Of a stretch of DNA of 24,412 nucleotides, positions 2 through 20,313 are shown piece by piece. The notes below the pieces were generated by a model. That model made no database searches. It was not told the DNA's origin and was given only the letters and a program-made list of their open reading frames with translations. The translations under genes and the position numbers were made by a program. Source of the stretch: a virus; the IMG/VR virus record IMGVR_UViG_3300010370_000234, positions 1 to 24,412 of that record; one strand, written 5' to 3'. Each line of letters opens with the position of its first letter. The stretch's first letter is position 1.

Positions 2-583
2 CCGTTATTTAAATTTGCACTAGGAACAGATGGTTGGAGTTCTAGATTTAGTCAAAGACCAGAATTTAGAACAAATTCTGTTGATTCTGGTGTTTTTGGA
101 CGATGTAGTGGAAGTCCATATGCTCCTGTTAGATCTTATAGAACTGTTAAAAAAATAAGAGCTGGAAGAGACTATTGTTTAATGTTATCAAATGAAGGAA
201 AAGTTATAACACCATTATGCCACAATTCAATTTCAGAACCGGGATTACCAAGACATTTTACAACGATAGGTTTAGCTGAATTTAATATCAATGTTCCTCC
301 TGTAAGATTTACAGAAAAACCATTAGCAGATATACAAATAGGACATTTTCATGTTATAGCTTTAACCACGGATAATAGAATATTAACATGGGGTGTTTCT
401 CCGGATGTAAGTTTCAGTAGACAATATTATCAAACAGTTATACCACCAGATCTAGAAAATGCTTCAAATGTAGTACAAATTGCTGCAGGAAAATACCACA
501 GCTCTGCTATATTAGCATCTAAAACTGATACTACATATTCTACGAGGATACGTTCTTTTGGTGAACCAGAAAGTAGTAATTAA
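2..583 (+). CDS. RCC1-repeat protein, C-terminal fragment (5' end outside window)
   Basis: The reading frame is open from base 2, so this is the last 193 codons of a longer gene; the internal ATG at 182 is not its start. At least three RCC1-like repeats can be read: KKIRAGRDYCLML (about 151-190), IQIGHFHVIAL followed by LTWG (about 335-405), and VVQIAAGKYHSSAIL (about 472-516) followed by a degenerate SFG. Such repeats form blades of a beta-propeller, used in many proteins for binding other macromolecules. The stop codon overlaps the next start (TAATG), so the gene is probably translationally coupled to its neighbour, which also contains RCC1 repeats. It is inferred to be part of the same virion-surface or adhesion cassette. 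Enzymatic activity is not suggested. The RCC1-like call is fairly secure; the role is not. Confidence 0.75.
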   Translation, partial: PLFKFALGTDGWSSRFSQRPEFRTNSVDSGVFGRCSGSPYAPVRSYRTVKKIRAGRDYCLMLSNEGKVITPLCHNSISEPGLPRHFTTIGLAEFNINVPPVRFTEKPLADIQIGHFHVIALTTDNRILTWGVSPDVSFSRQYYQTVIPPDLENASNVVQIAAGKYHSSAILASKTDTTYSTRIRSFGEPESSN

Positions 584-3500
584 TGCCATTAATAGGATCT
601 AGTTCTGTATCAGGAATGGGAAAAGGTCCAACCGGAGATACCGGAAATAGTGGTCCCATAGGTCCTATAGGAAATTCTGGTATAACTAAAGGAGAAACTG
701 GGGCGACTGGCATATTTATTTCTAGAGTAGTTTCTGATAGAGAAAACGATACTATTGTTTTTTATACATCAGATGGTAGTGCATATTCTCTCAATGGATT
801 TAGAGGACCATCCTCTTTAGTTTATGGTGTTAGTGGCATTTCTGCATCAATAAATTCTTCGTATTATTCTCCATTTATTGGTGTAAGTTCTGGTTTGACT
901 TTGAATTTTATAGGTATTTCTGCTGGCAATAATGTATCTGTAACTTCAAATTCTGAAAAAGTTTTTGTAAATATAAATTCTTCTTCTGGAAGTTACGGAC
1001 TTGTTCCAAAATTAGATCATGTTGTTTTTACCGACAATCCTTATCTAAAGGGAACAAATATATTTGTAGACGAAAATGATATTTTAAATTTTGGTTTAAC
1101 TGGAATACCAACAGGCATAACTTATAATACTTTATTTTCTACAATAAACGAAGATATAAATTATATAAATTCAGTAGTTCCTTCCAGTAATGGTGGAATA
1201 ATTTTAGATTTGAAGAAAAGCAGTAATCATTGGTTGGAAACACCCATGGGAATAACCGCATTCTCAGGAATTTCTTTGTCTGGAATACGACAAGAATATA
1301 CTTTATTTTTTAATGGTTCTAATGTTTGGAATCTACCAAATAATTTATATTTTGAAAACGATCAAGGCGGAATAAAAAATTATGCATTTTTAGATGGTGT
1401 TAATATTCTGCATATATGGTCTGAAAATGGGGGAGTTACTTTTAATGGTAATTTTATAGAAAGAGGATTGGGTGCTTCTGGTCCTTTTTATTTTACAAAT
1501 ATTGGTTCTTGTTGTTACAAAAAATATGGATACAGATATTGCACAGATGGAGTAGATCAGAGAACATGCGATTCTTTGGGTGGTATATTTGAGGCATTTA
1601 CTAATTGTTCTTCTAGAACATCTATAGATGAGTGTGGTGTTAGAGCTGGTCATAATATAAGAGGAGAAACGGGAGCATGTTGCTGTGGTGTTACTGGTTG
1701 TTTCGATAACAGTCCTGGAGGAATAGATCCATCTGTTGCTATTATATCAAGAAATTTGTGTGAGAACATTATTGGAGGAAAGTTTTATCCAAAGAAAGAG
1801 TGTAGTGTTGGAGACAAATGGCCAGCATACGGTATTAGGCCAATAGATGGAAATACTGCAGCAAATATTTTTTGTCATAAGCCGTGTATAGATCCTGTTG
1901 CTTGTTATAGGGTAGTAAATGGTGTGGGGATTTGTTCTCAAGAAACTGTTGCATATTGTGATGAAATAGGTGGTGATTCTTTTATAAACAAATTGTGTGG
2001 AGAAATAGATCAGATTGGTGGTGGTGCAGAACTTACAAGAGAAGGTTGGTGCTATAAATTCGGTGTTTGTAGTGATTTGCCTAATGTAAAAAAATACGAA
2101 TGTACTCCCTGTGGTCACTGGAATCAGACATTTTGTGACACTCAGCCGGTCATACCTGTTTCAAAAACTGTTATAACCACACCAAATCCTTTAATAAAAA
2201 TAGTTCACTCAGTTTCTTCTGTAGACGACGAAAACGTAACAACTACGTATTCTGATAGGGATCCTACTTTAAACTCTTTATCATTTCAAGTAGTTCAAGA
2301 AACTGTACAGAAGCATACTCTTTATGGTATAGTAAAAATATTAGATACTTCTATAGCAGGACAAACTGTATTTAATATATGGGATTTAAATCCAAGAAAT
2401 AATACTTGTTTTAATGTGAATGTTTTTGATGAAGATGGTTTAACATTAACAGAAAATTCTTTTATAGAAAGAGATAGAAGATACTTTTTACAAATTAAGG
2501 GCGTTCCATCTAAATGTGTTGATACTGATTTTAAAGCAGAAATTTATCTTGCTTTAAATAGTTGTGTTGGAGGATTTACTCTCACAACAAAATCCGATAC
2601 AGTTCCTATAATTTATACCAGAAGCCCCTGTACATGTATAGCAATAGATTCTTCACAAACTGTAGGAGATGTATTAAATAAAGCACCAATAACAATACCT
2701 TATGTCGCTGAACGTTTTTGTCTAGACTGTACTAAACGCTATTCTGGATTTACTGGCGATAAAGCACACATTTCTCACATACCATACCCTTTAAAAAAGC
2801 AATCTGGAATAATTACATTTTGTCCACCAACAGAAAATTTTGAAGATAATCCAATATCAATATGCACAAATTCTGAAGGATTTTGTGTTAGCTACGGCAT
2901 AATTGAAGATATCAATGGTTGTACTTATTCTAGTTTATTTGATTCTAACGGTGATGGAAAAATATTCAACGAAACAAATACAGCTCCAAATAATTGTTAT
3001 CATGCAGAATACAATGTTCCCGGAGAAGGAACCACTTATTATTATACTGGCTTAAGTAATCAAAATATTAGAACTTGTGAAACCAGATGTAAAGTAAGGA
3101 CACATTACGGGAGCACTTCTGATGAATTGTATTCTTTGGGGGATTGTTCTTCAAGAGACTGTAATTCATTATATGATACTGATTGTTGTGGTGCATTTAC
3201 TACAACAAGATTGAATACTTTAGCAAACTGTAAAACTTGCGCTGGAAATAACGAATCAATAACCGGTCCTTGTTCTTTTGTATACGCAAATCCGTATTTT
3301 AATAGAGTACATTTAGACACTAATGCGTTATATGATATAGGACAAAAATATAATATTAATATAAATGAACTAGAAAAAAACGTAATAAATGTTATAGAAA
3401 GAAAAAATTTATTATTTAATCCTAATTTTATCGGTGTAGGAAGTGATGGAGGTCCCTATGGAATAACTACATCCGATTCTGGAGTTGGTGGAGCTACGAT

Positions 3501-6312
3501 AGAAAGAAGAATTAATTTTTATGGTGGAGGAGGAGTTACACTAAATCCCGATCCCGATGATAGGGCAAAAACTTCTTGTATAACTTGTTCTGGTTTTTTT
3601 GATAAAACCGATAAAATAAGAGTACCAAAATTAAATCCAGATGGAGCATATGATGTTTATGGTTTGGTTTTAGAAAAAGAAAATATATGTTTGGTTGAAG
3701 AGAAGAAAACAAATCCCCAAAAATTTAATGAAACAAATATAGATAGAAAATATTATATCTTAATTAAAAAAATAGACAATTCTTGTTATCTAATATACGA
3801 TATAGCAAATCAAACAATAATAAACAGTCCAATTAAAGATTTACAATTAAAGTTTTTTAATTATAATAGCTTATGTTCTCTTAATTGTGAAGACTATACA
3901 GCATCTATAAAAGAAGTAAAGTGGTTAGGCACTGTCGGTTCTTCTTATAGAACTCCTATTATAACCGATAGATGTCAAGATTCTGTTATATTAAATTATA
4001 CTTTAAATAAAGACATAGAAGAAAAATTATATACGTCTGATAAAATTAATGATTATAAAATTTCTGATCTCGTAACATTTAGTGGTTTAAATTACAGTTC
4101 TTCTGAAGAAGTTAATAAAAATAAAGAACTAGCATCTCTTCTCTTAAGTATATTTAATGGAACTTTAAATCAACATAAGTTAAAACAATGTTCTCTGTGT
4201 TCTGGTGATGATTGTTATTCTGATATAATTCAAAATTTATCAGAATTTATTGGTGTTGATTGTAATGTAGATGGTATAAGTGGATCTGTTGGTAATGCTG
4301 AATTTTATTCTGCTTCTTTTTCGTTTATAAAAGACCCAATAAAAGTTCCTTTTAATCCTTCATTAAGATATAAAGAAGTATCTGCAGGATTTCATTGTAC
4401 CATAGGTATAACAGCAGGAGGTCCAGGAATAAGTGGTGGATTTACTGGTTGGGGCAGAAATCATTTAAATATGTTAGACGGATTTGCTTCTGCTGGTAGC
4501 ACTTACACTAAGGTTTCTGCTGGTGCTAATTGTGTTTGTGCTATACGAGGGGTTACGTACACAAGTGCAGTATTGGTGTGTAAAGGCGACAGTAAATACA
4601 GCAATACCATATATCCACAAGCTCCAATAACGGGAGTTAAGGATGTTTCTGTTGGTTATGCCCACACTGTTTGGATTGATTCTACTGGCGGATTAAGTTT
4701 TACAAATTCTATACCATATTCTCCGTATTGGGATGGTTCTAGAAAAATTGTTACAAGTTTACCTAAAGTAAAATCAATTTCTTCTGGTAAATTTCATTCT
4801 TGTGCTATATTAGACAATAATGGAATAACTTGTTGGGGAGATAATTTTTTTAACCAATGTAGTGTTCCGTCAGGATTAACCGCTTCAGCCATTTCTTGTG
4901 GTGGGCATCATACCCTTGCATTATTGGGAGACGGAACGCTTCGTGTTTGGGGAATAACAGCTTTTGGTTTAAATACCGTACCAACAGACAAATATAATAA
5001 AATTACAGCAGGATATCTTCACAACTGTGGAATAAAAACCGATGGTACTGTCCGATGTTGGGGATATACTTACGACGGACAATGTAATTCTCCAACCGGC
5101 CAATATGTTAGTATTTCTGCAGGTAGAGAACACACGGTAGCACTAGATTCTTCTGGGGGCATTACTTGCTGGGGAGTTATAGGAGACGACGGAATATGTG
5201 CTTCGTTTGAAGACAAAACTTTAATAGTTAATGATAATCCTAAACTAAGATGGTTAAAAGAAGGCACAGATTATGCAGACTTATCGCCATCAATTATTTT
5301 TAAGAATCTTAGTTTGCCCACATTATATTATGATACTAAAGTTTCCGGTTCTGGATTAACCGGATTTGTTGATTTTGATGCTAAGTTTTATTCTAGCGTA
5401 TTTGTTGGTGGTTTATATTTGGTTAATCAGCAGATAAAAAAACAAAAGAAACTGTTATTTCCTCCTTCAAGTGATATATCCTTTTATTATTTAAGTTATG
5501 CAATATATAAACAAAAACCTTCAGGATCTCCTAATATAGATTCTTATTCTCTTTCTTTTTACGATGTAATATACGATTATAATGGATTTTCTGGTCTTAG
5601 AACTGATGAAAATAAAGGAATTATTTTAAAGAAAAGAATACCAAGATTAGATGTGTCTTCGTTTAGAAATGAATTAAGTTTATCTAATGTAAAAACATAT
5701 TTAAATATAGTAACAGATAATCCACCAGAAGGATTCACATCATACTATCAACCTATAATTACTTTTAATTTAAAACAAACACAAGCAAGAATACCCGTTA
5801 AGGTTGGTGTGTTTGAAGTTGTGGGAGAAAATATTGTAGACGTAACACAGCAATATTATATGTTTGATGGTGGAAGTGATGAACTATTAACGCTAGACCT
5901 ACAAGGACTTGATGAATTTGACACTAATAAATATATTATAAGAGGAAAAAGGTTATACGATACAACACATCCATCTTTAAATTTTAGAAATAAATATTTA
6001 CTTGTTTACAGTCAGGGCAGTTTAAGTTCTTATTCGTATTACAATAATATCAATTTTTATCCGGGATTAACTTTTGGTTTTGAAGAGTTTAAAACATTAT
6101 TTTTAGATCGTATAGGTAATAGTAACAGTGTTAAAACCAGTAATTTTGACATAAAACCAATACCCCTACAAGAAACAGGACAAGAATTTGCTGGATATAT
6201 ATTAATGACTAAAGATACTACCAGTGCTCAACGAAAAGATGTAAATGGGGTATGTTTAGAAATAGATTGTAGTAAAATGCCTGAATTTTGTTCCGGTTAT
6301 CGTTCGTGTTAA
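583..6312 (+). CDS. Giant cysteine-rich virion protein with collagen-like segment and RCC1 propeller (paralogue A)
   Basis: This 1909-residue protein has no assigned family as a whole. Order of parts: an N-terminal GSSSVSG motif; collagen-like Gly-X-Y triplets at residues 15-33 and 37-43, separated by ITK; a probably beta-rich region to about 305, ending near ILHIWSENGG; four cysteine repeats of the GxCC type at 308-518; long Cys-containing domains with an EF-hand-like loop DSNGDGKI at 787-794; about seven RCC1 repeats at 1264-1540; and a C-terminal domain ending in VNGVCLEIDC. It is clearly paralogous to the next gene, for example QEYTLFF, SHIPYPLK and PGEGTTY in both. It occupies the place of gene 12/wac in T4, so a fibre, whisker or adhesin role on the virion is inferred. 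The start overlaps the upstream stop; no strong ribosome site is visible. CDS certain, role tentative. Confidence 0.9.
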   Translation: MPLIGSSSVSGMGKGPTGDTGNSGPIGPIGNSGITKGETGATGIFISRVVSDRENDTIVFYTSDGSAYSLNGFRGPSSLVYGVSGISASINSSYYSPFIGVSSGLTLNFIGISAGNNVSVTSNSEKVFVNINSSSGSYGLVPKLDHVVFTDNPYLKGTNIFVDENDILNFGLTGIPTGITYNTLFSTINEDINYINSVVPSSNGGIILDLKKSSNHWLETPMGITAFSGISLSGIRQEYTLFFNGSNVWNLPNNLYFENDQGGIKNYAFLDGVNILHIWSENGGVTFNGNFIERGLGASGPFYFTNIGSCCYKKYGYRYCTDGVDQRTCDSLGGIFEAFTNCSSRTSIDECGVRAGHNIRGETGACCCGVTGCFDNSPGGIDPSVAIISRNLCENIIGGKFYPKKECSVGDKWPAYGIRPIDGNTAANIFCHKPCIDPVACYRVVNGVGICSQETVAYCDEIGGDSFINKLCGEIDQIGGGAELTREGWCYKFGVCSDLPNVKKYECTPCGHWNQTFCDTQPVIPVSKTVITTPNPLIKIVHSVSSVDDENVTTTYSDRDPTLNSLSFQVVQETVQKHTLYGIVKILDTSIAGQTVFNIWDLNPRNNTCFNVNVFDEDGLTLTENSFIERDRRYFLQIKGVPSKCVDTDFKAEIYLALNSCVGGFTLTTKSDTVPIIYTRSPCTCIAIDSSQTVGDVLNKAPITIPYVAERFCLDCTKRYSGFTGDKAHISHIPYPLKKQSGIITFCPPTENFEDNPISICTNSEGFCVSYGIIEDINGCTYSSLFDSNGDGKIFNETNTAPNNCYHAEYNVPGEGTTYYYTGLSNQNIRTCETRCKVRTHYGSTSDELYSLGDCSSRDCNSLYDTDCCGAFTTTRLNTLANCKTCAGNNESITGPCSFVYANPYFNRVHLDTNALYDIGQKYNININELEKNVINVIERKNLLFNPNFIGVGSDGGPYGITTSDSGVGGATIERRINFYGGGGVTLNPDPDDRAKTSCITCSGFFDKTDKIRVPKLNPDGAYDVYGLVLEKENICLVEEKKTNPQKFNETNIDRKYYILIKKIDNSCYLIYDIANQTIINSPIKDLQLKFFNYNSLCSLNCEDYTASIKEVKWLGTVGSSYRTPIITDRCQDSVILNYTLNKDIEEKLYTSDKINDYKISDLVTFSGLNYSSSEEVNKNKELASLLLSIFNGTLNQHKLKQCSLCSGDDCYSDIIQNLSEFIGVDCNVDGISGSVGNAEFYSASFSFIKDPIKVPFNPSLRYKEVSAGFHCTIGITAGGPGISGGFTGWGRNHLNMLDGFASAGSTYTKVSAGANCVCAIRGVTYTSAVLVCKGDSKYSNTIYPQAPITGVKDVSVGYAHTVWIDSTGGLSFTNSIPYSPYWDGSRKIVTSLPKVKSISSGKFHSCAILDNNGITCWGDNFFNQCSVPSGLTASAISCGGHHTLALLGDGTLRVWGITAFGLNTVPTDKYNKITAGYLHNCGIKTDGTVRCWGYTYDGQCNSPTGQYVSISAGREHTVALDSSGGITCWGVIGDDGICASFEDKTLIVNDNPKLRWLKEGTDYADLSPSIIFKNLSLPTLYYDTKVSGSGLTGFVDFDAKFYSSVFVGGLYLVNQQIKKQKKLLFPPSSDISFYYLSYAIYKQKPSGSPNIDSYSLSFYDVIYDYNGFSGLRTDENKGIILKKRIPRLDVSSFRNELSLSNVKTYLNIVTDNPPEGFTSYYQPIITFNLKQTQARIPVKVGVFEVVGENIVDVTQQYYMFDGGSDELLTLDLQGLDEFDTNKYIIRGKRLYDTTHPSLNFRNKYLLVYSQGSLSSYSYYNNINFYPGLTFGFEEFKTLFLDRIGNSNSVKTSNFDIKPIPLQETGQEFAGYILMTKDTTSAQRKDVNGVCLEIDCSKMPEFCSGYRSC
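625..711 (+). repeat. Collagen-like Gly-X-Y segment of paralogue A
   Basis: Residues 15-43 of the 1909-residue protein carry glycine at every third position (15, 18, 21, 24, 27, 30, 33), then one four-residue step (G-ITK-G), then glycine at 37, 40 and 43. Such segments in phage tail proteins form short trimeric triple helices that link an N-terminal anchor to a distal domain. The same layout, including the interruption, recurs in the next gene. Confidence 0.8.
1504..2136 (+). repeat. Four GxCC cysteine repeats in paralogue A
   Basis: Residues about 308-518 hold four units that start with IGSCC, TGACCC, PVACY and GWCYK. Each has roughly the pattern G-x-C-C, Cys after 5-12 residues, a second Cys preceded by T or S, GG or G plus an aromatic, and a closing Cys. 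They look like small disulfide-linked (or metal-binding) modules. I recall similar GACC units in proteins of Planctomycetes and some environmental phages, but could not search. Confidence 0.7.
4372..5202 (+). repeat. Seven RCC1-type repeats (probable beta-propeller) in paralogue A
   Basis: Residues 1264-1540 contain seven consecutive units averaging about 40 residues, opened by KEVSAGFHC, TKVSAGANC, KDVSVGYAH, KSISSGKFHS, SAISCGGHHT, NKITAGYLHN and VSISAGREHT. The last four carry the classical closing WG (CWGD, VWGI, CWGY, CWGV) and the first ends in GWGR. Seven units is the number of blades in a closed RCC1 propeller. In the paralogous neighbouring protein the flanking sequences continue without these repeats. 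Confidence 0.85.
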
Positions 6313-6347
6313 CAGATAATTTATACATATTTTAGAAATATACAATT

Positions 6348-9300
6348 ATGCCCATATTAGGATCTAGTACAATTAAGGGATTTGGAGCGACCGGTCCTAC
6401 CGGAGATCCCGGAATTTTGGGCCCACGAGGGACCACTGGAAACGCTGGTACCACCAAAGGAGCAACAGGCAATACTGGAGAATATATTGCCAATGTTACC
6501 AGCAATAGAAGTTCAAATCAAATAATATTTACTACCTCAGAAGGCAGACAAACAATACTAAACGGGTTTTCTGGTCCTACCGGATTTGTTTATAATGTTA
6601 GTGGAATTTCTTCTGCTTTTGGTTCTACTTTTGTAAGTGGAATATCTAGAGGATACGGTTATACTTTTAGTTTTTACGGTATTAGTGCAGGAACAGGTAT
6701 CTCTGTATCGTCAGATGCAAGTAAAATAACAGTAACGTATACTCCTGGAAGAGATCCGTATACTAAAAATCCAGTACAAGATTATGTTCCGTATATACAG
6801 ATGGTTTCTGTTGCGGGGGGAAGTACGGGCATAAATTCTACCAGAATATACGCTGATACTAATAACCATTTACAATTTGGTTTAACAGGATTGCCTGTAG
6901 GAACTACTTTTAATTACTTATACACAAATCTAAATGAAGAAATTTTTACAGTAACCACTCCAGCTGTTAAAAGCCAAGGAGGAATAACACTAGATTTAAC
7001 TAGAGGATTTTCTAATTATTGGATACCCAACGATTACGGCATAACTGCATTTGTTGGAAATACTGCATCTGGAGTGCGGCAAGAATACACTTTATTTTTT
7101 GCTGGAAGAGATATATGGAATTTACCAAAAAATCTATATCTACAAAATACTGGTTCTGGAGTAAGTTATGGTGGGTTTGTTAAAGGATTAAACATTCTTC
7201 ATATATGGTCTGATAACGCTGGTGCAACCTTTAATGGTATATTTTTAGAAAGAGGAATAGGAGAACCAGATCCGTATGCATTCTATAATCTAGGATCTTG
7301 TTGTCTTAGTGGTACTTGTGAAGATAATGTTACCGAAGAATACTGTCTTGGCAGATCCGGCACATTTAGATCTTTAACTACCTGTGAGTCTAGAATAAAA
7401 TCCGGACAGTCTGTTTGTGGTGTTATAGTTGGAGGAGCAACCGGTGCTTGTTGTTGCGGTATTACCGGCTGTATTGATGCCACTAATATACCTTTGTTAG
7501 GTACTTTCCCGGATAGAGCTTTCTGTGACAGTATAAACGGAAAATTTTATCAAGGAAAAACATGTGGGTTCCTTGATAAATGGGGCCAGGGCTATACTTA
7601 TAATAGAGGAAACACTTCAGCAGATTATAATATCTGCCACACATGTGGTGCTCCAATGGTTGCTTGTTGTAGACAAATAGCTGGTGGTTGGACTTGTACA
7701 CAAGAAACTGTTTACTATTGTGAGAGTATTGGCGGTACCGCTCATTACAATACTGACTGTTCTACAATAGACTGTTCTGTTATTAGTTCAGGTGGTAATT
7801 GTAGACAGAATGGAGCATGTAACGTTGTACCAAATTCTGATTGTGTTTGTGGAGTATGGTATGGAACAAACCCCTGTCAATCGTCCGGAAATACTGGTAT
7901 ATTTAATATCTTAACAAATGCACCACACGTTAATATTATTCATTCTTTAACCGTTGCTCAGTATTCTGTTCGTCATTCTTTGGATATAACACAACCAAAC
8001 AAATTAGACTTTTATGTTAATTATCCTTCTGGTTATACTCAAGACTATAAATTAGATGGTTATATAGAAATAGAAGACACAGGAGTTACTTATAGTATAT
8101 GGAACAATACATCTTGTATAAGATTAGATATAAAAGATTTTACAAATAATTTTATAAATCAAAACGATATATTAACCAATAATACAGCTGTTACAGTAGA
8201 AGTATCTGTAGATTTAGCAGAAGCTCCGTGCAGCACAGATCAAAACTTTAAAGGTAAATTATTTTTAAATCTTATTTCTTGTCCAGACGGACCTCTACTT
8301 TCTACCCAAAAAAGTGTAGACATTATCTACACAAACAGCCCGTGTACTTGTTTAGGGTACTCTAACGGTGATATTGTAAACAAAGCTCCAATAGTAGTTC
8401 CATTTACTGCTGAACGGTATTGTACACACTGTACATTCCCAGAAGTTAATCTAGGAAATATAATTTCTCATATTCCTTATCCCTTAAAAAGACAAACAGG
8501 TCTGTTAACTTTCTGTCCTCCTACAGGAATTTCTGGTTCTCAGTGTGGTATAATATCGTCTTTCTGTGTGTATTACGATCCTATTCAAGAACTTAGTGGT
8601 TGCACATATTCTAGCAGATTTGATGGTAATGGCGATTATTTGGTTGCTTTTGGTATTAATGATCCTAATGGAGCATATGGGCCAAATCGAAACGGTGATA
8701 GAGGAGACAGTATATTCGAAGGAAACACTTTACCGGATGGTTGTTTTCACGTAGAATACAATGCTCCCGGAGAAGGAACCACGTATTTTCATAAATACGA
8801 TCCTCAAGAAGCGTTTTATCCGGATGAATTTGCTTTAGTAAACGATTGGTATAGTGCTGGTAACACTGACAGATATACGGATTCTGATGGAAACGATATT
8901 CCTCTGGATTATGCTGATTGGCTGTCCGGAAACTATAAATTACACCACACCAGACTATATACCGACGATAGATGTAAACGTTGTTTATACGTAAACTCTA
9001 AACCTTCGATATTAGACTGTGATGCAAGAGCACCATTTGATTATGCATATTGCGTTGATGAACAAGATGTAAGAGCGCAAGTAAAAACAAATATGTATCC
9101 CGGACAAAACGGGAACTGGTTAACAGCATTTAATGCGGCTGGTGGTATTTTACGACTATTAGGAAATCCATACTATAATACAGTAAAATTTGATGATGAT
9201 GCTTTAACGTACGTAGCAAAAACGTATAATCTAGATCCATTTTTCTTACAACAAAGAATTAACAGAGAACTAAGAAAATACGGAAAATTATTTGATCCAT

Positions 9301-11576
9301 CACATATTTATGGTACGGTTACCCACATAACAGCAAATTACGGTATAACATCATCTGATGGTTTTGATGCATTAGATTCTACTACCAAACAACGTTTATT
9401 AGTAGATCCTTTAGAAGATATAGGAGGATCTGCTATAGATGTGGACGATAAAGCAAGAGATTCGTGTATGGATTGCAGTAAGTTTTTTAATATTAATAGA
9501 ATACAAGTTCCTTCATTAGCAATTACTGATATAAGTGCTTTAGGTGCAGACTATTATGCTTATGGATTGGTTATAGAAAAATTAAAACAGTGTAGTGTTC
9601 ATTACGAAGGAACCACAGCAGACAGTGATGCTGTTCTATATTGTGGGTGTAATGCAGGTCCAGATCCGGATGGCGATGGAATAGATGCTGTTTGTCCGGA
9701 CGGTTGCGATAGCGATTCTAACAAATATTGTAAAGAAAAAAATCTAATAACACGGCAATTAAAATATTATGCAGTTATTATAAGAAAACCAAAAAATGCG
9801 GATCCATCTTGTGTTTTAGTGTACGATATAGGAAATCAAGAAGTTGTTTACGGTGGTGATTTGAACAGTGGTAATTTTGGTTCGGTTTTTTGTAGAGGAG
9901 GAGATGTGATTTGTCCTTTGGACTGCAATACACCTATAAAAATTAGAGAACTTGTTTGGTTAGGAGATCTTACACTAAATAGTCTAGACATGGTAGGACA
10001 GGATCCAAGGCCAGAGACGCGGCAGTGTGAAGATAGTGTAAAAGTTAGATATACTTTAAATCCAATAGATAAAACATTTACAGGATTTGATCCGTACAGA
10101 TACGTTTCTATTACAGATCCTAGTTTCTTTCGAATTGATAATCTTAATAGACCAACAACATTCGGCAGCATCAATGCAACAATTTCTGCTAGATTAGCTC
10201 ATTTTGCTACGGTAACTAGTAATATATTTTGTAAATCCGGTACAACAGATTATTTAAATTCCAGATGTTCTATATGTGCTAACGATAGTTGTTATTCTGA
10301 TGTTATACCTAAACTTATAGAGTTTATTGGACCTGGTTGTTCTGTAGAAGGGTTCTTTTGTGGTGCTACTGCTTCCGTGAATAACAAAGGTTTAACTTTT
10401 GTTGATGGTCCTAATGATAGAGCAAAAAGTTTTGTTCAAATTACAGGAGATCCTGTGTATTGGTTGATTGAATCTAAATATAATTCTAATATATCTGGAT
10501 TAACTATAGGGCCTCCTGCCGGAACTACTAGTATTACAGGTATTGGCGCACCTTTTAGGGATACGTGCAATACAGGAACCAGTCCAACAAGAACTTTTTA
10601 TACGGGGTTAGACACCAGATTCTATCAAGAACACAATATTTCGTATTTGTATACTACAAAAATAAATGGTGCAACCGGTATAAGATTATCAAAAAATATA
10701 GAATCTAATGGTTTAACTGCATGTTTTGTTATTCCGAGAGATACTGACGGTAAAGATTGGTGGTATTTACAAAATTCCGGTTATACAAGTGGTATACGTT
10801 ATTGTTCTAATGCTTCTACATGCTCTGGTTATGTATTTACACCACCCAAATTAAATGTAAACGGATACAGACCTTCTATTCTGATAAACAATTTATCTGT
10901 AACAGAAACTGGTACTGGAGACATTGTTGTTAGATTTAGACCAACTGGTGCATTTTTTAGAAGCACTTTGTCAACTTTAGATAATATTGATTATAATGAT
11001 TTAAATGTAAAGGTTATAAAATTAAATGGAAATACTATAGAAGATGTTACATCTTCGTATATTGATCCCCTCGTCCCTAGTAGTTCTAATACATTTAATA
11101 AAAATCATACAGACGCAGAACTAGACGGGGATTCTAAAGAAACCGGATACGTTATATTTAATATAACAAATAATAAACCACAATTTAAAAACGACGTTAT
11201 TGCTGGTAATTTATACTTGTTATTTAATGTGAATAACAGTGACGTTGCTAACACAAATTTTACAACAAACTGGGCAGCAAAGCAGGTAAAAACTGCTATA
11301 TACTCTAATGTTTATAAACAGTATGAAGTTCCACATTCCAATGGTTCGGGGGATCCGGATCCGGGTTGGCCAGCAGTGTTTGATAATTCCTGGAATGGCA
11401 ATGCTGACTGGGATAACACTTCTACATTGGGCGATTTTGCATTACAAAAAATAAATGCAGTGATTACTGGTGCTATTGCACCACCCATTTCTACAAAGAA
11501 AACCGTAAACGGAATCTGTATAAATATTGATTGTACGGCTATAAATGGTCTATGTGATAACTTAGAAGGATGCTGA
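6348..11576 (+). CDS. Giant cysteine-rich virion protein with collagen-like segment (paralogue B)
   Basis: This 1742-residue protein is a paralogue of the upstream gene, from the MPILGSSTIKG start to the VNGICINIDC ending. Visible parts: Gly-X-Y triplets at 13-34 and 38-44 interrupted by TTK; a beta-rich region with QEYTLFF and ILHIWSDNAG; four GxCC-type repeats at about 316-505; shared Cys domains (SPCTC, SHIPYPLK, PGEGTTY); and a thrombospondin-type-3-like acidic stretch DPDGDGID at 1106-1113 followed by CPDGCDSD. It lacks the RCC1 block of its neighbour. A 35-base gap precedes it, with no clear Shine-Dalgarno site and only near-matches to the late promoter (TATACATA at 6322, TAGAAATA at 6333). 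It is inferred to be a virion fibre or adhesin working alongside paralogue A, perhaps in the same trimeric structure. CDS certain; function inferred from position and domains. Confidence 0.9.
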   Translation: MPILGSSTIKGFGATGPTGDPGILGPRGTTGNAGTTKGATGNTGEYIANVTSNRSSNQIIFTTSEGRQTILNGFSGPTGFVYNVSGISSAFGSTFVSGISRGYGYTFSFYGISAGTGISVSSDASKITVTYTPGRDPYTKNPVQDYVPYIQMVSVAGGSTGINSTRIYADTNNHLQFGLTGLPVGTTFNYLYTNLNEEIFTVTTPAVKSQGGITLDLTRGFSNYWIPNDYGITAFVGNTASGVRQEYTLFFAGRDIWNLPKNLYLQNTGSGVSYGGFVKGLNILHIWSDNAGATFNGIFLERGIGEPDPYAFYNLGSCCLSGTCEDNVTEEYCLGRSGTFRSLTTCESRIKSGQSVCGVIVGGATGACCCGITGCIDATNIPLLGTFPDRAFCDSINGKFYQGKTCGFLDKWGQGYTYNRGNTSADYNICHTCGAPMVACCRQIAGGWTCTQETVYYCESIGGTAHYNTDCSTIDCSVISSGGNCRQNGACNVVPNSDCVCGVWYGTNPCQSSGNTGIFNILTNAPHVNIIHSLTVAQYSVRHSLDITQPNKLDFYVNYPSGYTQDYKLDGYIEIEDTGVTYSIWNNTSCIRLDIKDFTNNFINQNDILTNNTAVTVEVSVDLAEAPCSTDQNFKGKLFLNLISCPDGPLLSTQKSVDIIYTNSPCTCLGYSNGDIVNKAPIVVPFTAERYCTHCTFPEVNLGNIISHIPYPLKRQTGLLTFCPPTGISGSQCGIISSFCVYYDPIQELSGCTYSSRFDGNGDYLVAFGINDPNGAYGPNRNGDRGDSIFEGNTLPDGCFHVEYNAPGEGTTYFHKYDPQEAFYPDEFALVNDWYSAGNTDRYTDSDGNDIPLDYADWLSGNYKLHHTRLYTDDRCKRCLYVNSKPSILDCDARAPFDYAYCVDEQDVRAQVKTNMYPGQNGNWLTAFNAAGGILRLLGNPYYNTVKFDDDALTYVAKTYNLDPFFLQQRINRELRKYGKLFDPSHIYGTVTHITANYGITSSDGFDALDSTTKQRLLVDPLEDIGGSAIDVDDKARDSCMDCSKFFNINRIQVPSLAITDISALGADYYAYGLVIEKLKQCSVHYEGTTADSDAVLYCGCNAGPDPDGDGIDAVCPDGCDSDSNKYCKEKNLITRQLKYYAVIIRKPKNADPSCVLVYDIGNQEVVYGGDLNSGNFGSVFCRGGDVICPLDCNTPIKIRELVWLGDLTLNSLDMVGQDPRPETRQCEDSVKVRYTLNPIDKTFTGFDPYRYVSITDPSFFRIDNLNRPTTFGSINATISARLAHFATVTSNIFCKSGTTDYLNSRCSICANDSCYSDVIPKLIEFIGPGCSVEGFFCGATASVNNKGLTFVDGPNDRAKSFVQITGDPVYWLIESKYNSNISGLTIGPPAGTTSITGIGAPFRDTCNTGTSPTRTFYTGLDTRFYQEHNISYLYTTKINGATGIRLSKNIESNGLTACFVIPRDTDGKDWWYLQNSGYTSGIRYCSNASTCSGYVFTPPKLNVNGYRPSILINNLSVTETGTGDIVVRFRPTGAFFRSTLSTLDNIDYNDLNVKVIKLNGNTIEDVTSSYIDPLVPSSSNTFNKNHTDAELDGDSKETGYVIFNITNNKPQFKNDVIAGNLYLLFNVNNSDVANTNFTTNWAAKQVKTAIYSNVYKQYEVPHSNGSGDPDPGWPAVFDNSWNGNADWDNTSTLGDFALQKINAVITGAIAPPISTKKTVNGICINIDCTAINGLCDNLEGC
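6384..6479 (+). repeat. Collagen-like Gly-X-Y segment of paralogue B
   Basis: Residues 13-44 have glycine at 13, 16, 19, 22, 25, 28, 31 and 34, then the four-residue step G-TTK-G, then 38, 41 and 44. The interruption sits at the same place as in paralogue A, which argues for common descent rather than independent repeat growth. Confidence 0.8.
7293..7862 (+). repeat. Four GxCC cysteine repeats in paralogue B
   Basis: Residues about 316-505 carry four units beginning LGSCC, TGACCC, MVACC and GNCRQ. The third (ending TQETVYYCESIGG) aligns directly with SQETVAYCDEIGG in paralogue A. The cysteine spacing is largely kept between the two proteins, while the intervening residues differ. Confidence 0.7.
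11519..11526 (+). promoter_or_regulatory. Putative T4-type late promoter core (TATAAATA) inside the end of paralogue B
   Basis: An exact TATAAATA lies within the coding region 54 bases upstream of the 486-residue gene. In T4-type late promoters transcription starts about 6 bases past the motif, which would give a leader of about 48 bases that contains a good AGAAGGA ribosome site. Because the motif is coding sequence it could be chance; the position is suggestive only. Confidence 0.4.
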
Positions 11577-11579
11577 TAT

Positions 11580-13040
11580 ATGTCACAATTTAAAAGTAGA
11601 GTTCCTGGAAGTTTTTGGACTTCTTCTTCAACAATAAAAGGAGCAGATCAAGGTTATTGTTGTAGTAGTACAGGAGACGGTACTTATGTGCCTTCCACTC
11701 GTTACGAATGTTTTTTAAAAAATGGATTTTTTGTTGCTGGATTTAGTGAAATAGATGCAAAAAATCAATGCCCAAAAGTAGAAAAGGGAGTTTGTTGTGT
11801 TTACGATGCTACTACAAAAGTTAGGGTACAACAAGATAATGGTGTAACTTTTTGTTCTTGTTCGCAAAGCAATCCTACGTATTCAGGTTATCTTGTTAGT
11901 TATCAAAAATCAGGAACATGTCCTTCTGAGAAAGCTTCTCTTGCACCAGAAAATGGGGCGTGTTGTTATTGGGATGCAGTTAGTGATTATTATGTAAATA
12001 AATGCGAAACCGTGGCTAATTATGATTCTTGTAAACTTTTACACGATGGTGGCCCAGAAGGATTAAAATTTTCATTCTATCTGGGAGAATCGTGCATTTT
12101 TGATGGCGGTAATATTGTGTGTAATGCTGGCAAAGGACTTACACAATTAGAAAAAGAAAATAATCCAGACTGCAAAACAGACACACCAGAAGATTGTCTT
12201 TTAGAAGAAAATATGTTAGGAAATTGTTGTACTTTGTTAGAAAATGGCACAAGACAATGCAATATATCAACAAAATCAGAATGTTCTGGATTTTGGTCTT
12301 ATCTTGGTGTGGTAAAAGGATGTAGTGGTAGCACTTTATGTTCTGGTGTTTATTTTCCAGAAAAAACAGCAACAGAATATTTTCCAACAACTGCTAGTAT
12401 TTCTGTAATTACAGGATCCGGTAATCCTATAGAAAAACTTCCAACAACATCTGCTCTTTATCAAGGAGGATTGTATGTTGGTATATTTGAACCAGGAAAT
12501 ACAATAAATCTTTCTGGTTCTATGGTCTATGGAAACACAACAACCGGAGACCCCAAACAATATAGAGCTAGAGGAACTGGATTAGGCACAAGAAATAAAA
12601 AATGGATACTAATAGCAGGACTTGCCGATACTAATATCCCGCAATCCAGTATATTAGATCCAAATAAAGGCACATCATTTTATGATGGTTTTTATAACAC
12701 AAATATAAGAAATACCAACTATTATTCAACAATAAGAAATACAAATATAAACGGGTTTTCCGACTGGTATATTCCTAGTCAAGACGAACTTGCTTTTTTC
12801 TTTAACACTATTACATCTACTTTCACTGTAAGTGGTTATACTCCACTTTTAGAAAATTATTATTTGACTTCTACAAATTATGGTGTAGGTTATGATAATA
12901 AATTAGCACAAATAGGAGAAAAATATTTTGTGTATACTCAAAGTGCTATATCCAGTCAATACGGAAAAGTAATTTTAATGCCTCAAGATAATCTTAATTG
13001 TAAAGTTAGATTATTTAGAAGAATTTATTTGGGTAGTTGA
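11580..13040 (+). CDS. Cysteine-repeat protein with DUF1566/Lcl_C-like C-terminal domain
   Basis: This 486-residue protein has two halves. Residues 25-248 hold four GxCC-type units (GYCC, GVCC, GACC, GNCC) like those of the two upstream giants. The C-terminal part (about 290-486) has GGLYVGIF, then GFSDWYIPSQDEL at 392-404, then YYLTSTNY, and ends with VRLFRRIYLG. This order resembles the DUF1566 / Legionella collagen-like C-terminal (Lcl_C) domain, a C-type-lectin-related fold common in adhesins and phage tail proteins. The N-terminus contains SSSTIKG, matching GSSTIKG of paralogue B, so both may dock to the same partner. The start is supported by AGAAGGA at 11564-11570, and the gap to the upstream stop is only 3 bases. 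It is inferred to be a small adhesin or tip protein of the same apparatus. No transmembrane segment or signal peptide was seen. Confidence 0.8.
   Translation: MSQFKSRVPGSFWTSSSTIKGADQGYCCSSTGDGTYVPSTRYECFLKNGFFVAGFSEIDAKNQCPKVEKGVCCVYDATTKVRVQQDNGVTFCSCSQSNPTYSGYLVSYQKSGTCPSEKASLAPENGACCYWDAVSDYYVNKCETVANYDSCKLLHDGGPEGLKFSFYLGESCIFDGGNIVCNAGKGLTQLEKENNPDCKTDTPEDCLLEENMLGNCCTLLENGTRQCNISTKSECSGFWSYLGVVKGCSGSTLCSGVYFPEKTATEYFPTTASISVITGSGNPIEKLPTTSALYQGGLYVGIFEPGNTINLSGSMVYGNTTTGDPKQYRARGTGLGTRNKKWILIAGLADTNIPQSSILDPNKGTSFYDGFYNTNIRNTNYYSTIRNTNINGFSDWYIPSQDELAFFFNTITSTFTVSGYTPLLENYYLTSTNYGVGYDNKLAQIGEKYFVYTQSAISSQYGKVILMPQDNLNCKVRLFRRIYLGS
11652..12323 (+). repeat. Four GxCC cysteine repeats in the 486-residue protein
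   Basis: Residues 25-248 contain four units headed GYCCS, GVCCV, GACCY and GNCCT, each with two or more later cysteines. Spacing is looser than in the giant paralogues but the GxCC heads are better kept. The repeat type is therefore shared by three adjacent genes. Confidence 0.7.
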
Positions 13041-13793: not shown

Positions 13794-14594
13794 ATGGCCA
13801 CCATACAATCACGAGAAGATCTAATAAACTATAGTTTAAGGTACTTAGGTGCCCCTGTTATAGAAATAAACGTAGACTGGCAACAATGCGAGGATCGTTT
13901 AGATGAGGCACTTCAATATTTTACCGAACGTCATTTTGACGGTGTTGAAAAAGTATTTTTTAAATATCAATTAACACAACAAAATATAACAGACAGATAC
14001 ATCAATACTGAAGACATTCTATCTCCAAATGAAATAGACGGTCCCACCGGTAAAGAAATAGTATCCATAATTAAAGTCATGCAATTCGGTCAATTTGCAA
14101 ACATCAATATGTTTGATGTTCGTTATCAACTGGCACTGACCGACTATTTTGGTATTAATAGAAATTTAAGTGGTGTGTATTCTATGGGATTGGCAGCATA
14201 CGATGCAACCAAACGATATATTCAATTAATTCAAGATCTTTTTCAACCAGAAAAAGCGGTACGATACAGTAAAGTGACTAATCGTTTATATTTGGATATG
14301 AACTGGAATCAAGAAACAAAAGCCGGAGATTGGATCTGTATTTGGGCTTATGCTGCTCTTAATCCAGAAAAATATGTAGAAATTTATAACGATCGTTACT
14401 TAAAAAGATATGTAACAGCATTAATTAAAAAACAATGGGGAAGCAATATGTCTAAATTTGATGGAGTTGCTCTTCCTGGAGGAGTTTCTATGCGTGGTGG
14501 GCAGATTTATGCTGAAGCTGTAGCAGAAATAGCTCAAATAGAAGCAGAGATGTTAATTAATTACGAGTACCCAGTAGATTTTATGACAGGTTAA
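13794..14594 (+). CDS. gp13: Neck protein gp13
   Basis: The 266-residue product resembles the T4 superfamily gp13 neck (head-completion) protein, which with gp14 seals the filled head after packaging and forms the joining site for the tail. Support: the N-terminal MATIQSREDLI...LGAPVIEINVDWQQ...RLDEALQYF is typical of environmental T4-like gp13; it has the expected order before gp14-gp15-gp16-gp17; and its length is somewhat below the 309 residues of T4 gp13. The central region is helical with an aromatic-rich segment (DMNWNQETKAGDWICIWAYAAL). The start is the family-type MATIQ. No Shine-Dalgarno site precedes it; a CATAAATA motif ends seven bases before the ATG. It is separated from gp14 by a single base, consistent with co-translation. 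Confidence 0.92.
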   Translation: MATIQSREDLINYSLRYLGAPVIEINVDWQQCEDRLDEALQYFTERHFDGVEKVFFKYQLTQQNITDRYINTEDILSPNEIDGPTGKEIVSIIKVMQFGQFANINMFDVRYQLALTDYFGINRNLSGVYSMGLAAYDATKRYIQLIQDLFQPEKAVRYSKVTNRLYLDMNWNQETKAGDWICIWAYAALNPEKYVEIYNDRYLKRYVTALIKKQWGSNMSKFDGVALPGGVSMRGGQIYAEAVAEIAQIEAEMLINYEYPVDFMTG

Positions 14595-14595
14595 T

Positions 14596-15213
14596 ATGGC
14601 AATAAATCCGTTCTTTAAAGATTATTCGGGAGAACAAAACCTAGTAGAAGATCTAACTATAGAGATCATAAAAACTATGGGACGGGATGTAGTCTATGTT
14701 CCTCGTATGGCGGTTTTAACAGATGAGCTGTATGGAGAACACAGAGGTTCTCATTTTAAAAATGGTATACCAATAGAAATGTATATAGATTCTGTTAGTG
14801 GTTTTGAAGGTCAAGGAGATCTTGCTACAAAATTTGGTATTGAAATTAGAGATAATGTTTCTTTAACGGTAGCAAAAAAAAGATTTAATGAAGAAATAAA
14901 AACAAGATTTCCTGATGTTATCAGACCAAGAGAAGGCGATTTAATATTTTTTCCGTTAGCAAGAGCATTGTTTGAAATAAATTTCGTAGAACACGAAAAC
15001 CCATTCTATCAACATGGAAAACTGTATTCGTATAGATTAACATGTGAACTGTTCTCGTATAATACCGAAGAAGTTCAAACTGGAAATACTGATATAGATG
15101 CAGTAGTTCCTGAAAATGAAAACGAACTAGGCGAAAATGAACACATACAAAATCTATCTGTTGATATTATAGATTTTACAGAAACTAATCCATTTTCTGA
15201 AGGAAGCTTTTAA
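14596..15213 (+). CDS. gp14: Neck protein gp14
   Basis: The 205-residue product corresponds to T4 gp14 (256 residues), partner of gp13 in the neck. The N-terminal FFKDYSGEQNLVEDLTIEIIKTMGRDVVYVPR is a recognisable gp14 signature: these proteins open with a (S)GEQ-L-EDL helix and a V-Y-PR strand. The region PREGDLIFFPLARALFEINFVEHENPFYQHGK also fits the conserved core. The C-terminal tail is acidic (residues about 160-190). It starts 1 base after the gp13 stop, with a weak AGG ribosome site, and its last base overlaps the gp15 start (TAATG). No oddities apart from the shorter length. Confidence 0.92.
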   Translation: MAINPFFKDYSGEQNLVEDLTIEIIKTMGRDVVYVPRMAVLTDELYGEHRGSHFKNGIPIEMYIDSVSGFEGQGDLATKFGIEIRDNVSLTVAKKRFNEEIKTRFPDVIRPREGDLIFFPLARALFEINFVEHENPFYQHGKLYSYRLTCELFSYNTEEVQTGNTDIDAVVPENENELGENEHIQNLSVDIIDFTETNPFSEGSF

Positions 15214-15887
15214 TGTTTACACATTTTAAAAATGATTCGATAAGAAAATTGGTTATTGCTGTTGGTACATTATTCAACAACATTAAAATAGTTAGATTAA
15301 AAAAAGATTCAACAACACAAGAAATAACTATTCCTTTAACTTATGCTCCAAAGGAAAAGTATATAAAAAGATTAACACAAGCAAGCTCTATAAGCGATAG
15401 AACTCGTATTCAAATTGATGTGCCACAAATGGCATTTGAATTAACTGATGTTGTATACGATCCTACCAGAAAATTAAACAAGATGTTTGACAAGTATGGT
15501 TCTACTGGTGGTGTTAGTTATTCGTCAAAAATGGAAGTTCCTTATAATTTTGTATTTTCTCTATACGCTTATACAAGAAACATAGACGAAAATTTAGAAA
15601 TAATGGAACAAATACTCCCGTATTTTAGTCCAGAATTTGTAGTATCTTTAAACATCACAGATATTCATAAAAAAGTAGATGTTCCTATAGTTTTAAATAA
15701 AACAATTTTAACACAAGAATATGAAGGAGATTTTAGTTCTAGAAGAATGATACTTAGTACGTATCAATTTACCGCCAAGTCTTATATATTCAATCGTGTT
15801 AAAGCTGCTACAAACATTACTAAAGAATTTGATTTATCGTTGTTTGAAACTCTTGGTGGAATAACTTATGATATTGATGTGGAGTAA
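15213..15887 (+). CDS. gp15: Tail terminator / proximal sheath stabiliser gp15
   Basis: The 224-residue protein matches T4 gp15 (272 residues), which caps the tail tube and sheath with a hexameric ring and connects the tail to the neck. Signature stretches: the N-terminus FKNDSIRKLVIAVGTLFNNI, PLTYAPKEKYIKR, the DVPQMAFELTD segment, and YDPTRKLNK, in the family order. The C-terminal part, with FSSRRMILSTYQFTAKSYIF, is the usual gp15 ending. AAGGA at 15200-15204 is a good ribosome site, and the start overlaps the gp14 stop. There is no sign of truncation. Confidence 0.93.
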   Translation: MFTHFKNDSIRKLVIAVGTLFNNIKIVRLKKDSTTQEITIPLTYAPKEKYIKRLTQASSISDRTRIQIDVPQMAFELTDVVYDPTRKLNKMFDKYGSTGGVSYSSKMEVPYNFVFSLYAYTRNIDENLEIMEQILPYFSPEFVVSLNITDIHKKVDVPIVLNKTILTQEYEGDFSSRRMILSTYQFTAKSYIFNRVKAATNITKEFDLSLFETLGGITYDIDVE

Positions 15888-19183: not shown

Positions 19184-19717
19184 ATGGCAGTTTCTTCTAT
19201 AACTCAGTTTTTGGCCGGATTTGGTGGCGGAACCAGAGTAAATCGTTTTCAAGTAACCACCGCTGGTTGTGGTGCTGCTGGAAACTTTTTAACTAATACA
19301 GATACTCAATTTCACATAAGAGCTGCAACTATTCCCGGTTCAAACATTGTTCCTATCGGAATAAATTATTTTGGAAGAACAATAAACATTCCAGGAGAAC
19401 GTGTATACGAACCGTGGTCAATAACTGTGCTAGACGACAGAGGCGATAAACAACTATACAATAAATTTAAAGCTTGGCATAAACGAGTAACTAGTTATGG
19501 AACAGATATCAGTATCGATACTACAGGCATTGCTGATTGTACCTGGACTATTACGCATTTAAAAAATGCAGATGAAACTGCTCACAAAACATTTACACTG
19601 TCTCAAGCATGGCCTGCAACTATTGGTCCACTTATTTTAGATATGAGTCAAGACAACGTATTAGCATCGTTTGAAGTAAAAATACTCTACACCCATTTTA
19701 ACTACACACACACCTAA
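19184..19717 (+). CDS. gp19: Tail tube protein gp19 (copy 1)
   Basis: The 177-residue protein matches the T4 tail tube gp19 (163 residues), which stacks as hexameric rings inside the sheath and conducts DNA. Typical elements: N-terminal SITQFLAGF...RVNRFQV, FHIRAATIPGS, RTINIPGERVYEPWSITVLDD (the strand pair resembling T4 INVAGDRTFDDWTVTV), a central FKAWHKR helix, and the closing WP-T-IGPLILDMS plus FEVKI strand. Ribosome site AAGGA at 19170-19174. It lies between the sheath and a second, diverged tube gene, and is closer to T4 gp19 in size, so it is the better candidate for the main tube subunit. Confidence 0.92.
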   Translation: MAVSSITQFLAGFGGGTRVNRFQVTTAGCGAAGNFLTNTDTQFHIRAATIPGSNIVPIGINYFGRTINIPGERVYEPWSITVLDDRGDKQLYNKFKAWHKRVTSYGTDISIDTTGIADCTWTITHLKNADETAHKTFTLSQAWPATIGPLILDMSQDNVLASFEVKILYTHFNYTHT

Positions 19718-19728
19718 AAGAGGATTAG

Positions 19729-20313
19729 ATGGCATCAATAACAGATTTCTTAGGCGGTTTTAGAGGCGGTACTAGAGTTAATCGATTCAAGATTAATGCT
19801 CAAAACTGTCCTTATTTGGGAACCGGAGACATAGAGATTCACATTAGAGCAACTTCATTTCCAGAAATGGATATTTTACCTTTTCCGGTAAATTACAAAG
19901 GAAAAACAATAAACATTCCAGCTGTTAGAAACTTTGTTCCTTGGATCGTTACTGTTATGGATGATGTTAGAGTTGGTGCTGGTGATGCTTCTTCTAATCC
20001 AGAAGAAAATTTACACAAAAAATTTATGGATTGGAGTGATAGCATAGTAGATACTGGAGAGACTTATGGTGTTAGACGATTAGGTTCTGCAATAAAAGTG
20101 GGGCAAGGTGATGATGCTGCATTTTCTGGTAATGGAAATATATGGACTATTACTCATTTAGATCATCTTCCGACAGAAACTGCACTAAAGACCTTTAAGA
20201 TGTATAATTGTTGGCCTATTCAGGTGGGACCAATACAATTAGATATGAATGAAAATGCTAGAATTTCTATGTTTAACGTGACTTTAGCGTATAGTCACAT
20301 AGAAGACTCATAA
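19729..20313 (+). CDS. Second tail tube protein, gp19-like (copy 2)
   Basis: The 194-residue protein is a diverged tandem copy of the preceding gene: ASITDFLGGF...GTRVNRF against SSITQFLAGF...GTRVNRF, KTINIPAVRNFVPWIVTV against RTINIPGERVYEPWSITV, and both end with GPIQLDM or GPLILDM followed by a final strand. It carries extra residues in the middle (around DVRVGAGDASSNPEE and the GVRRLGSAIKVGQGDD stretch). Ribosome site AGAGGA is 4 bases before the ATG, and the gap to copy 1 is 11 bases. It could be a second tube subunit, a baseplate tube-initiator (T4 gp54 is a gp19 relative, though much larger) or a tube-end protein. The gp19 fold is secure; the division of labour is unknown. Confidence 0.87.
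   Translation: MASITDFLGGFRGGTRVNRFKINAQNCPYLGTGDIEIHIRATSFPEMDILPFPVNYKGKTINIPAVRNFVPWIVTVMDDVRVGAGDASSNPEENLHKKFMDWSDSIVDTGETYGVRRLGSAIKVGQGDDAAFSGNGNIWTITHLDHLPTETALKTFKMYNCWPIQVGPIQLDMNENARISMFNVTLAYSHIEDS

Follow-up and report, generated by a model that had tools for sequence, protein, structure and literature searches.

The window analysed here is a complete IMG/VR contig of 24,412 bp (IMGVR_UViG_3300010370_000234), and positions 2–13,040 hold a set of genes for large cysteine-rich proteins. This set is probably an exchangeable cassette of host-recognition fibres, encoding receptor-binding subunits attached to the tail or neck, in a clade of T4-like myoviruses with kinship to Kyanoviridae. 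The genes are tightly packed and all lie on the plus strand (Table 1): a C-terminal fragment (gene 1), two giants termed A and B, and a smaller protein termed ORF4 (open reading frame 4). An initial annotation had described four consecutive plus-strand frames ending at 13,040, two of them above 1700 codons, and this was confirmed (A has 1909 amino acids and B 1742), with the first frame being only a fragment open at the contig edge. Its interpretation was partly supported, as detailed below, and it did not include the paralogy of A and B, ORF5 (the frame between the cassette and the neck gene gp13) or the recurrence of the cassette in related viruses.

A and B are tandem paralogs that align from the first residue over 1467 columns at 34% identity. 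The homology ends near residue 1235–1290, where A continues with an RCC1 propeller and B with a shorter, unrelated module, and the last ~20 residues of both are alike again, with a cysteine motif (VNGxCxxIDC...C...C). As read from this alignment, the C-termini differ by module exchange between conserved ends. RCC1 blades, reported in the initial annotation, were recovered in A (E 5.5e-24, 83.7 bits vs. a Pfam cut-off of 22) and in the gene 1 fragment (42 bits, same cut-off), but RCC1 had no Pfam match in B. The closest PDB relative of the RCC1 part of A was beta-lactamase inhibitory protein II (BLIP-II; E 3e-18), and gene 1 had no homolog among the related loci that were fetched. The collagen-like start is short (~7–12 Gly-X-Y triplets): its glycines, at residues ~16–41, are invariant in an alignment of 15 homologs, but Pfam Collagen (PF01391) was not matched in A or B, and homologs stayed below threshold (best 22 of 27.2 bits). 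The same alignment contains 11 invariant cysteines after the conserved domain, which extends to ~310. The N-termini matched collagen-like and tail-fibre PHROGs weakly and no family strongly, while a hidden Markov model (HMM) of this N-terminal anchor matched two to four tandem genes per virus. The structure model of B residues 1–520 reached a predicted local distance difference test score (pLDDT) of 50 and was not used for fold search.

Cysteine accounts for 164 of the 4137 residues of A, B and ORF4 (4.0%) but only for 18 of 3314 (0.54%) across 13 genes further downstream (Fisher p 1e-24), in agreement with the cysteine richness initially described. An HMM built from 75 instances of a 33-residue repeat (consensus IGACCINGTCVDNVTETECESLGGIFYGDGTSC) detected three copies in A, two in B and up to 17 in a relative; a low-confidence model suggests a strand-strand-helix-strand arrangement per repeat. 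Two relatives, L025 1–3198 (16% cysteine, 12 repeats) and L192 1–4437 (10%, 17 repeats), were among the most cysteine-rich phage ORFs examined.

ORF4 combines a cysteine-rich N-terminal half with a C-terminal domain of the Lcl_C/DUF1566 type (~284–486). Such an end had been proposed initially, and it was matched by 20 of 21 ORF4 homologs, weakly, at E ≤ 0.1 (best 2.4e-4), whereas ORF4 itself scored 18.7 bits against Lcl_C (PF07603), under the Pfam cut-off of 34.9. A fold search with the AlphaFold model of ORF4 (pLDDT 78) returned 44 chains with Z ≥ 2, nearly all of them C-type lectins over ~284–486 and with low scores (typically Z 3–5, best 5.8), and the BFVD matches of the model were phage DUF1566 and collagen proteins. 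The C-terminal part may have a C-type-lectin-like fold, to which the match is weak; a profile search of the PDB with the ORF4 alignment gave nothing significant. The motifs DWYIPS..EL and YLTSS, the fold class and the collagen-linked phage relatives in BFVD resemble Lcl_C/DUF1566 receptor-binding domains (Lcl adhesin, Mtd-type phage tropism proteins), from which ORF4 differs in its sub-threshold Pfam score. Variation by a diversity-generating retroelement was rejected, as no linked reverse transcriptase (RVT_1) was found in 14 incomplete records (the window and 13 related contigs).

Searches with the giants (tblastn against phage records, single-protein and A/B-pair pattern scans of viral contigs) matched only RCC1 segments, and relatives were therefore reached through ORF4, ORF5 and gp13; the scans of viral contigs led to 25 ORF5-containing and 49 gp13-containing loci (L numbers). 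The initial annotation had proposed to look for the same block before gp13 in other environmental T4-like genomes, and the cassette is indeed present, as an optional block of 10–13 kb in the same slot, on dozens of contigs from uncultured T4-like viruses. Carriers include L013, L017, L020, L031, L034, L041, L050, L053, L055, L064 and L065, and the more divergent L021, L025 and L203. Their gene order runs from several anchor-sharing cysteine-rich genes (the last of 567–1966 amino acids) through ORF4, or a long protein with the same end domain, to ORF5 and gp13, with additional cysteine-rich genes interspersed at some distant loci. The left border of the window's cassette lies outside the contig; in L072/L073, L070, L069 and L203 the cassette stands between gp6/gp8-like baseplate genes (matches to gp6-like PF21379 and to phrog_438) and ORF5-gp13. 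The order in L073 is gp6-like, 373 amino acids, gp8-like (455), 133, 243, fibre-like (774), 380, cassette, ORF5 and gp13.

At L032/L033 the cassette is cleanly absent: a 377-amino-acid gene is followed directly by ORF5 and gp13, forming a natural empty slot, and the flanking proteins match (372 amino acids, 69% identity; 456, 65%; 236, 60%; 882/774, 42%; 377/380, 40%). The two fibre-like genes (774 and 380 amino acids) that precede the cassette in relatives persist where it is absent, and Pfam and PHROG scans of the cassette proteins and of the relatives' neighbours detected gp12 and wac (fibritin) families in neither arrangement. Because of this clean absence with matching flanks, the cassette is an optional module and not, as had been claimed, a replacement of gp12/wac; nor does it lie immediately before gene 13, since ORF5 is in between. 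In a gp13 tree non-carriers are scattered, well-supported branches force at least five changes, and L032/L033 are nested in a carrier clade, with carrier labels that are coarse (ORF4 or a repeat match upstream; L030 was scored as a carrier on a small cysteine-rich protein, and short contigs were unlabelled). Contigs without giants have short cysteine-rich ORFs beside the gene upstream of ORF5 (L030 2259–2567, 102 amino acids with one cysteine repeat; L028 1941–2492, 183 amino acids), perhaps cassette remnants or minimal versions. On a related contig, L026/L063 (IMGVR_UViG_3300045125_000073), numerous in-frame stops, with all three stop codons represented, interrupt the gp6, gp13, portal and cassette genes; the contig is a provirus-like remnant in decay or else an assembly of low quality.

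ORF5 forms the constant right border of the slot and is retained where the cassette is absent. It is 58–72% identical across 18 loci and carries the motifs C..C...CGGCGCGDK..TWL and YSKLDYP; at distant loci (L050–L058) it exceeds gp13 in conservation (about 62–67% vs. 46–51%). No match was found in Pfam, PHROGs or the INPHARED phage records, and a profile search of the PDB with the ORF5 alignment gave nothing significant. ORF5 might bind zinc and act at the neck or in assembly.

Receptor-binding fibres usually show a gradient of divergence from the N- to the C-terminus. The giants of L013 and L017 were 65–84% identical over the first 400 residues and 24–31% over the last 500, with 63–86% for their ORF4s. 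Between the window and L002, identity increased from the B C-terminus (42% over 212 amino acids) to ORF4 (67%), ORF5 (75%) and gp13 (92%), and three informative pairs are few for such a comparison of rates.

This kind of system is already known. Host recognition clusters (HRCs) of cyano- and pelagimyophages are large, hypervariable regions between baseplate genes and gp14 with several genes resembling tail fibres or receptor-binding proteins, including collagen-repeat, Mtd and YadA domains (PMC7029224), with the baseplate protein VrlC as the marker of their left border. The loci of the relatives have the corresponding position, lying as an island within the structural operon with baseplate genes on one side and gp13/gp14 on the other. 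They differ from HRCs in a cysteine-rich repeat family that is unmentioned in that description (PMC7029224) and in their conserved borders, formed by the 377/380-amino-acid gene at the left and by ORF5 at the right end. The annotation of S-PM2 (Kyanoviridae) places a giant tail fibre immediately upstream of gp13, together with three structural proteins of the virion (S-PM2p091–095), and in Melnitz tail fibre genes are annotated in the same slot; the slot proteins of S-PM2, however, contain 0.3–0.6% cysteine and do not match the HMMs of the anchor, cysteine repeat, ORF4 or ORF5. All evolved populations of cyanophage S-TIM4 had mutations in a YadA structural protein (2235 amino acids), chiefly those on sub-optimal hosts, where the diversity was higher (PMC6224464). 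The anchor, cysteine-repeat, ORF4 and ORF5 families were matched by none of 50,697 phage records, where hits were confined to RCC1 in A, and by nothing above cut-off in NCBIfam or Pfam, RCC1 apart. The suggestion of a new class of adhesin complex therefore did not stand for the kind of system, while the protein families and the cysteine-repeat chemistry look new.

A role in host recognition, likewise proposed initially, is best supported by the location between baseplate and neck genes, the common anchor, the divergent C-termini, the lectin-like and beta-propeller modules and the optional presence. The subunits would be trimeric virion proteins whose common N-terminal anchor, a few collagen triplets followed by a beta-rich domain of ~310 residues, docks onto the baseplate or neck. 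A shaft of cysteine-rich repeats, stiffened by disulphides or metal, would carry at its far end a module that varies from paralog to paralog and from virus to virus (the RCC1 beta-propeller in A, another in B) and may contact and bind the host surface, and ORF4, with its cysteine repeats and lectin-like end, could be a smaller partner or cap. Situated between the fibre-like gene pair and ORF5-gp13, the cassette would be gained, lost and duplicated as a unit. Cytoplasmic assembly is assumed because none of the cassette proteins has a hydrophobic N-terminal segment (signal peptide or membrane anchor); the disulphides would then arise once the particles are released, unless the cysteines bind metal instead. 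A search for a sulphydryl oxidase (Evr1_Alr) detected none, but its controls gave no match either, so the result carries no information.

Several points weigh against a host-recognition cassette. Cysteine-rich folding in the reducing environment of the cytoplasm is uncommon among phage proteins, the clade is uncultured and known from sequence alone, and the anchor model is too poor for identification. The lectin-like domain of ORF4 is conserved (89–98% in L034/L064), unlike a fast-evolving tip, and the giants of the same pair are only mildly polarised (86% down to ~50–60%, tail 79%). Host-range-setting virion proteins of abundant uncultured T4-like viruses are mostly unknown, and a bordered module can be followed through metagenomes and compared from one host to another. 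A biochemical question also arises: how do proteins with 4–16% cysteine fold under the reducing conditions of the cytoplasm, and which role do the cysteines have on the particle?

Outside these phages, the cysteine repeat occurs mainly in planctomycete proteins, with which it connects the putative fibres. Its exact DNA pattern occurred in 108 stretches in 84,980 genomes, and among the 80 listed of these, 63 were from planctomycetes, mostly Phycisphaerae; with the phage-built HMM, repeat proteins were verified at 84 bacterial loci, with at most 42 copies in one ORF. Planctomycetota (Phycisphaerae) proteins share the consensus GACC..G.C...C...GG.F.G.GT.C, and the bacterial repeat loci differ in having neither the phage anchor nor ORF4 or ORF5. 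A scan of 2.9 million viral contigs with the same DNA pattern gave 16 stretches in 15 records, and since seven of the 15 also carry ORF5, the repeat shows, among viruses, a strong association with this clade. The GC content of the window (~34%) gives no support for a planctomycete host, and literature searches on phage cysteine-repeat fibres, planctomycete cysteine repeats and phage Lcl_C yielded nothing specific. A doubtful further proposal is that of cysteine-armoured fibres, in which the planctomycete-shared shaft repeat would be flexible and reduced in the cytoplasm and locked by disulphides or metal after release, giving long-lived, redox-matured fibres with tips swapped as modules.

Neck fibres or whiskers attached to the gp13/gp14 neck like those of A-1(L) or T4 wac, and serving fibre retraction or weak tethering rather than primary receptor binding, are an unlikely alternative, although the cassette lies directly before ORF5-gp13-gp14. 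Anabaena myophage A-1(L) has bead-chain, multi-gene neck fibres of ~100 nm, of which gp80 carries a distal carbohydrate-binding module that did not bind the host (PMC10966104). Compared by description and not by sequence, the two systems share a multi-gene fibre in one operon, N-terminal anchoring and a distal carbohydrate-binding module, and differ in T4 gene order and neck type and in that "cysteine" and "disulfide" are missing from the text of the A-1(L) paper (PMC10966104). The left neighbours in complete loci, however, are baseplate and fibre-like genes, the divergent C-terminal modules fit recognition better than a mechanical whisker, and the cassette proteins have no sequence link to wac.

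It is improbable that the proteins are adhesins decorating the capsid or tail, which would attach virions to particles, to polymers of a mucus-like kind or to the surfaces of cells instead of triggering infection. The RCC1 propeller, lectin-like and cysteine-repeat modules are generic extracellular binding modules, the latter shared with planctomycete proteins, and the cassette is dispensable in L032/L033; a location within the tail structural operon and an N-terminal anchor common to all paralogs argue against such adhesins. Late surface or released non-virion proteins (superinfection exclusion, surface degradation) are most improbable, for although pelagimyophage HRCs also hold non-structural surface-modifying genes (PMC7029224), the cassette proteins have collagen-like fibre N-termini, no hydrophobic N-terminal segment and no enzyme family match in Pfam, PHROG and NCBIfam scans.

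Table 1. Genes of the cassette and adjoining region, with the parts of giants A and B (nucleotide positions in the window unless given as residues).
Feature	Position	Strand	Evidence or remarks
Upstream RCC1-repeat protein (gene 1), C-terminal fragment, 193 aa (amino acids)	2–583	+	RCC1_2 E 7.3e-11, WD40_RLD E 2.9e-12; truncated by contig start
Giant A, 1909 aa	583–6312	+	Collagen-like start, anchor, cysteine repeats, RCC1 propeller
A: collagen-like start	residues 1–45
A: conserved anchor	to residue ~310
A: cysteine-repeat region	residues ~307–515
A: paralogous middle	to residue ~1235
A: RCC1 propeller	residues ~1250–1535
A: unique C-terminal part
A: cysteine tail			Common with B
Giant B, 1742 aa	6348–11,576	+	Paralog of A (alignment)
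B: parts			Anchor, cysteine region and middle as in A; shorter unrelated module for RCC1; same C-terminal cysteine tail
ORF4, 486 aa	11,580–13,040	+	Cysteine-rich half and Lcl_C/DUF1566-type end
ORF5, 230 aa	13,071–13,763	+	Clade-wide conserved cysteine-motif protein
gp13-like neck protein (head-tail adaptor)	13,794–14,594	+	phrog_211 E 8e-37; T4-like core begins
gp14-like neck/head closure protein	14,596–15,213	+	PF11649 E 1e-34
gp15-like tail sheath stabiliser	15,213–15,887	+	PF16724 E 1.5e-55

From 13,794 onward the window encodes a T4-like virion core (gp13, gp14, gp15 and beyond; Pfam and PHROG matches). The virus was placed near Kyanoviridae and distant from any isolate, because gp17/terminase was 56% identical to those of cyanophages and of Methylophilales phage Melnitz. 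The photosystem genes psbA/D, a marker of a cyanobacterial host, were found in none of nine contigs, which is not decisive. The T4 late promoter TATAAATA had four matches vs. 5.5 expected by chance and hence gave no evidence for T4 late promoters. The sheath gene is followed by a neighbouring pair of tail-tube-like genes of the gp19 type (19,184–20,313; 177 and 194 amino acids), which are apparently paralogs.

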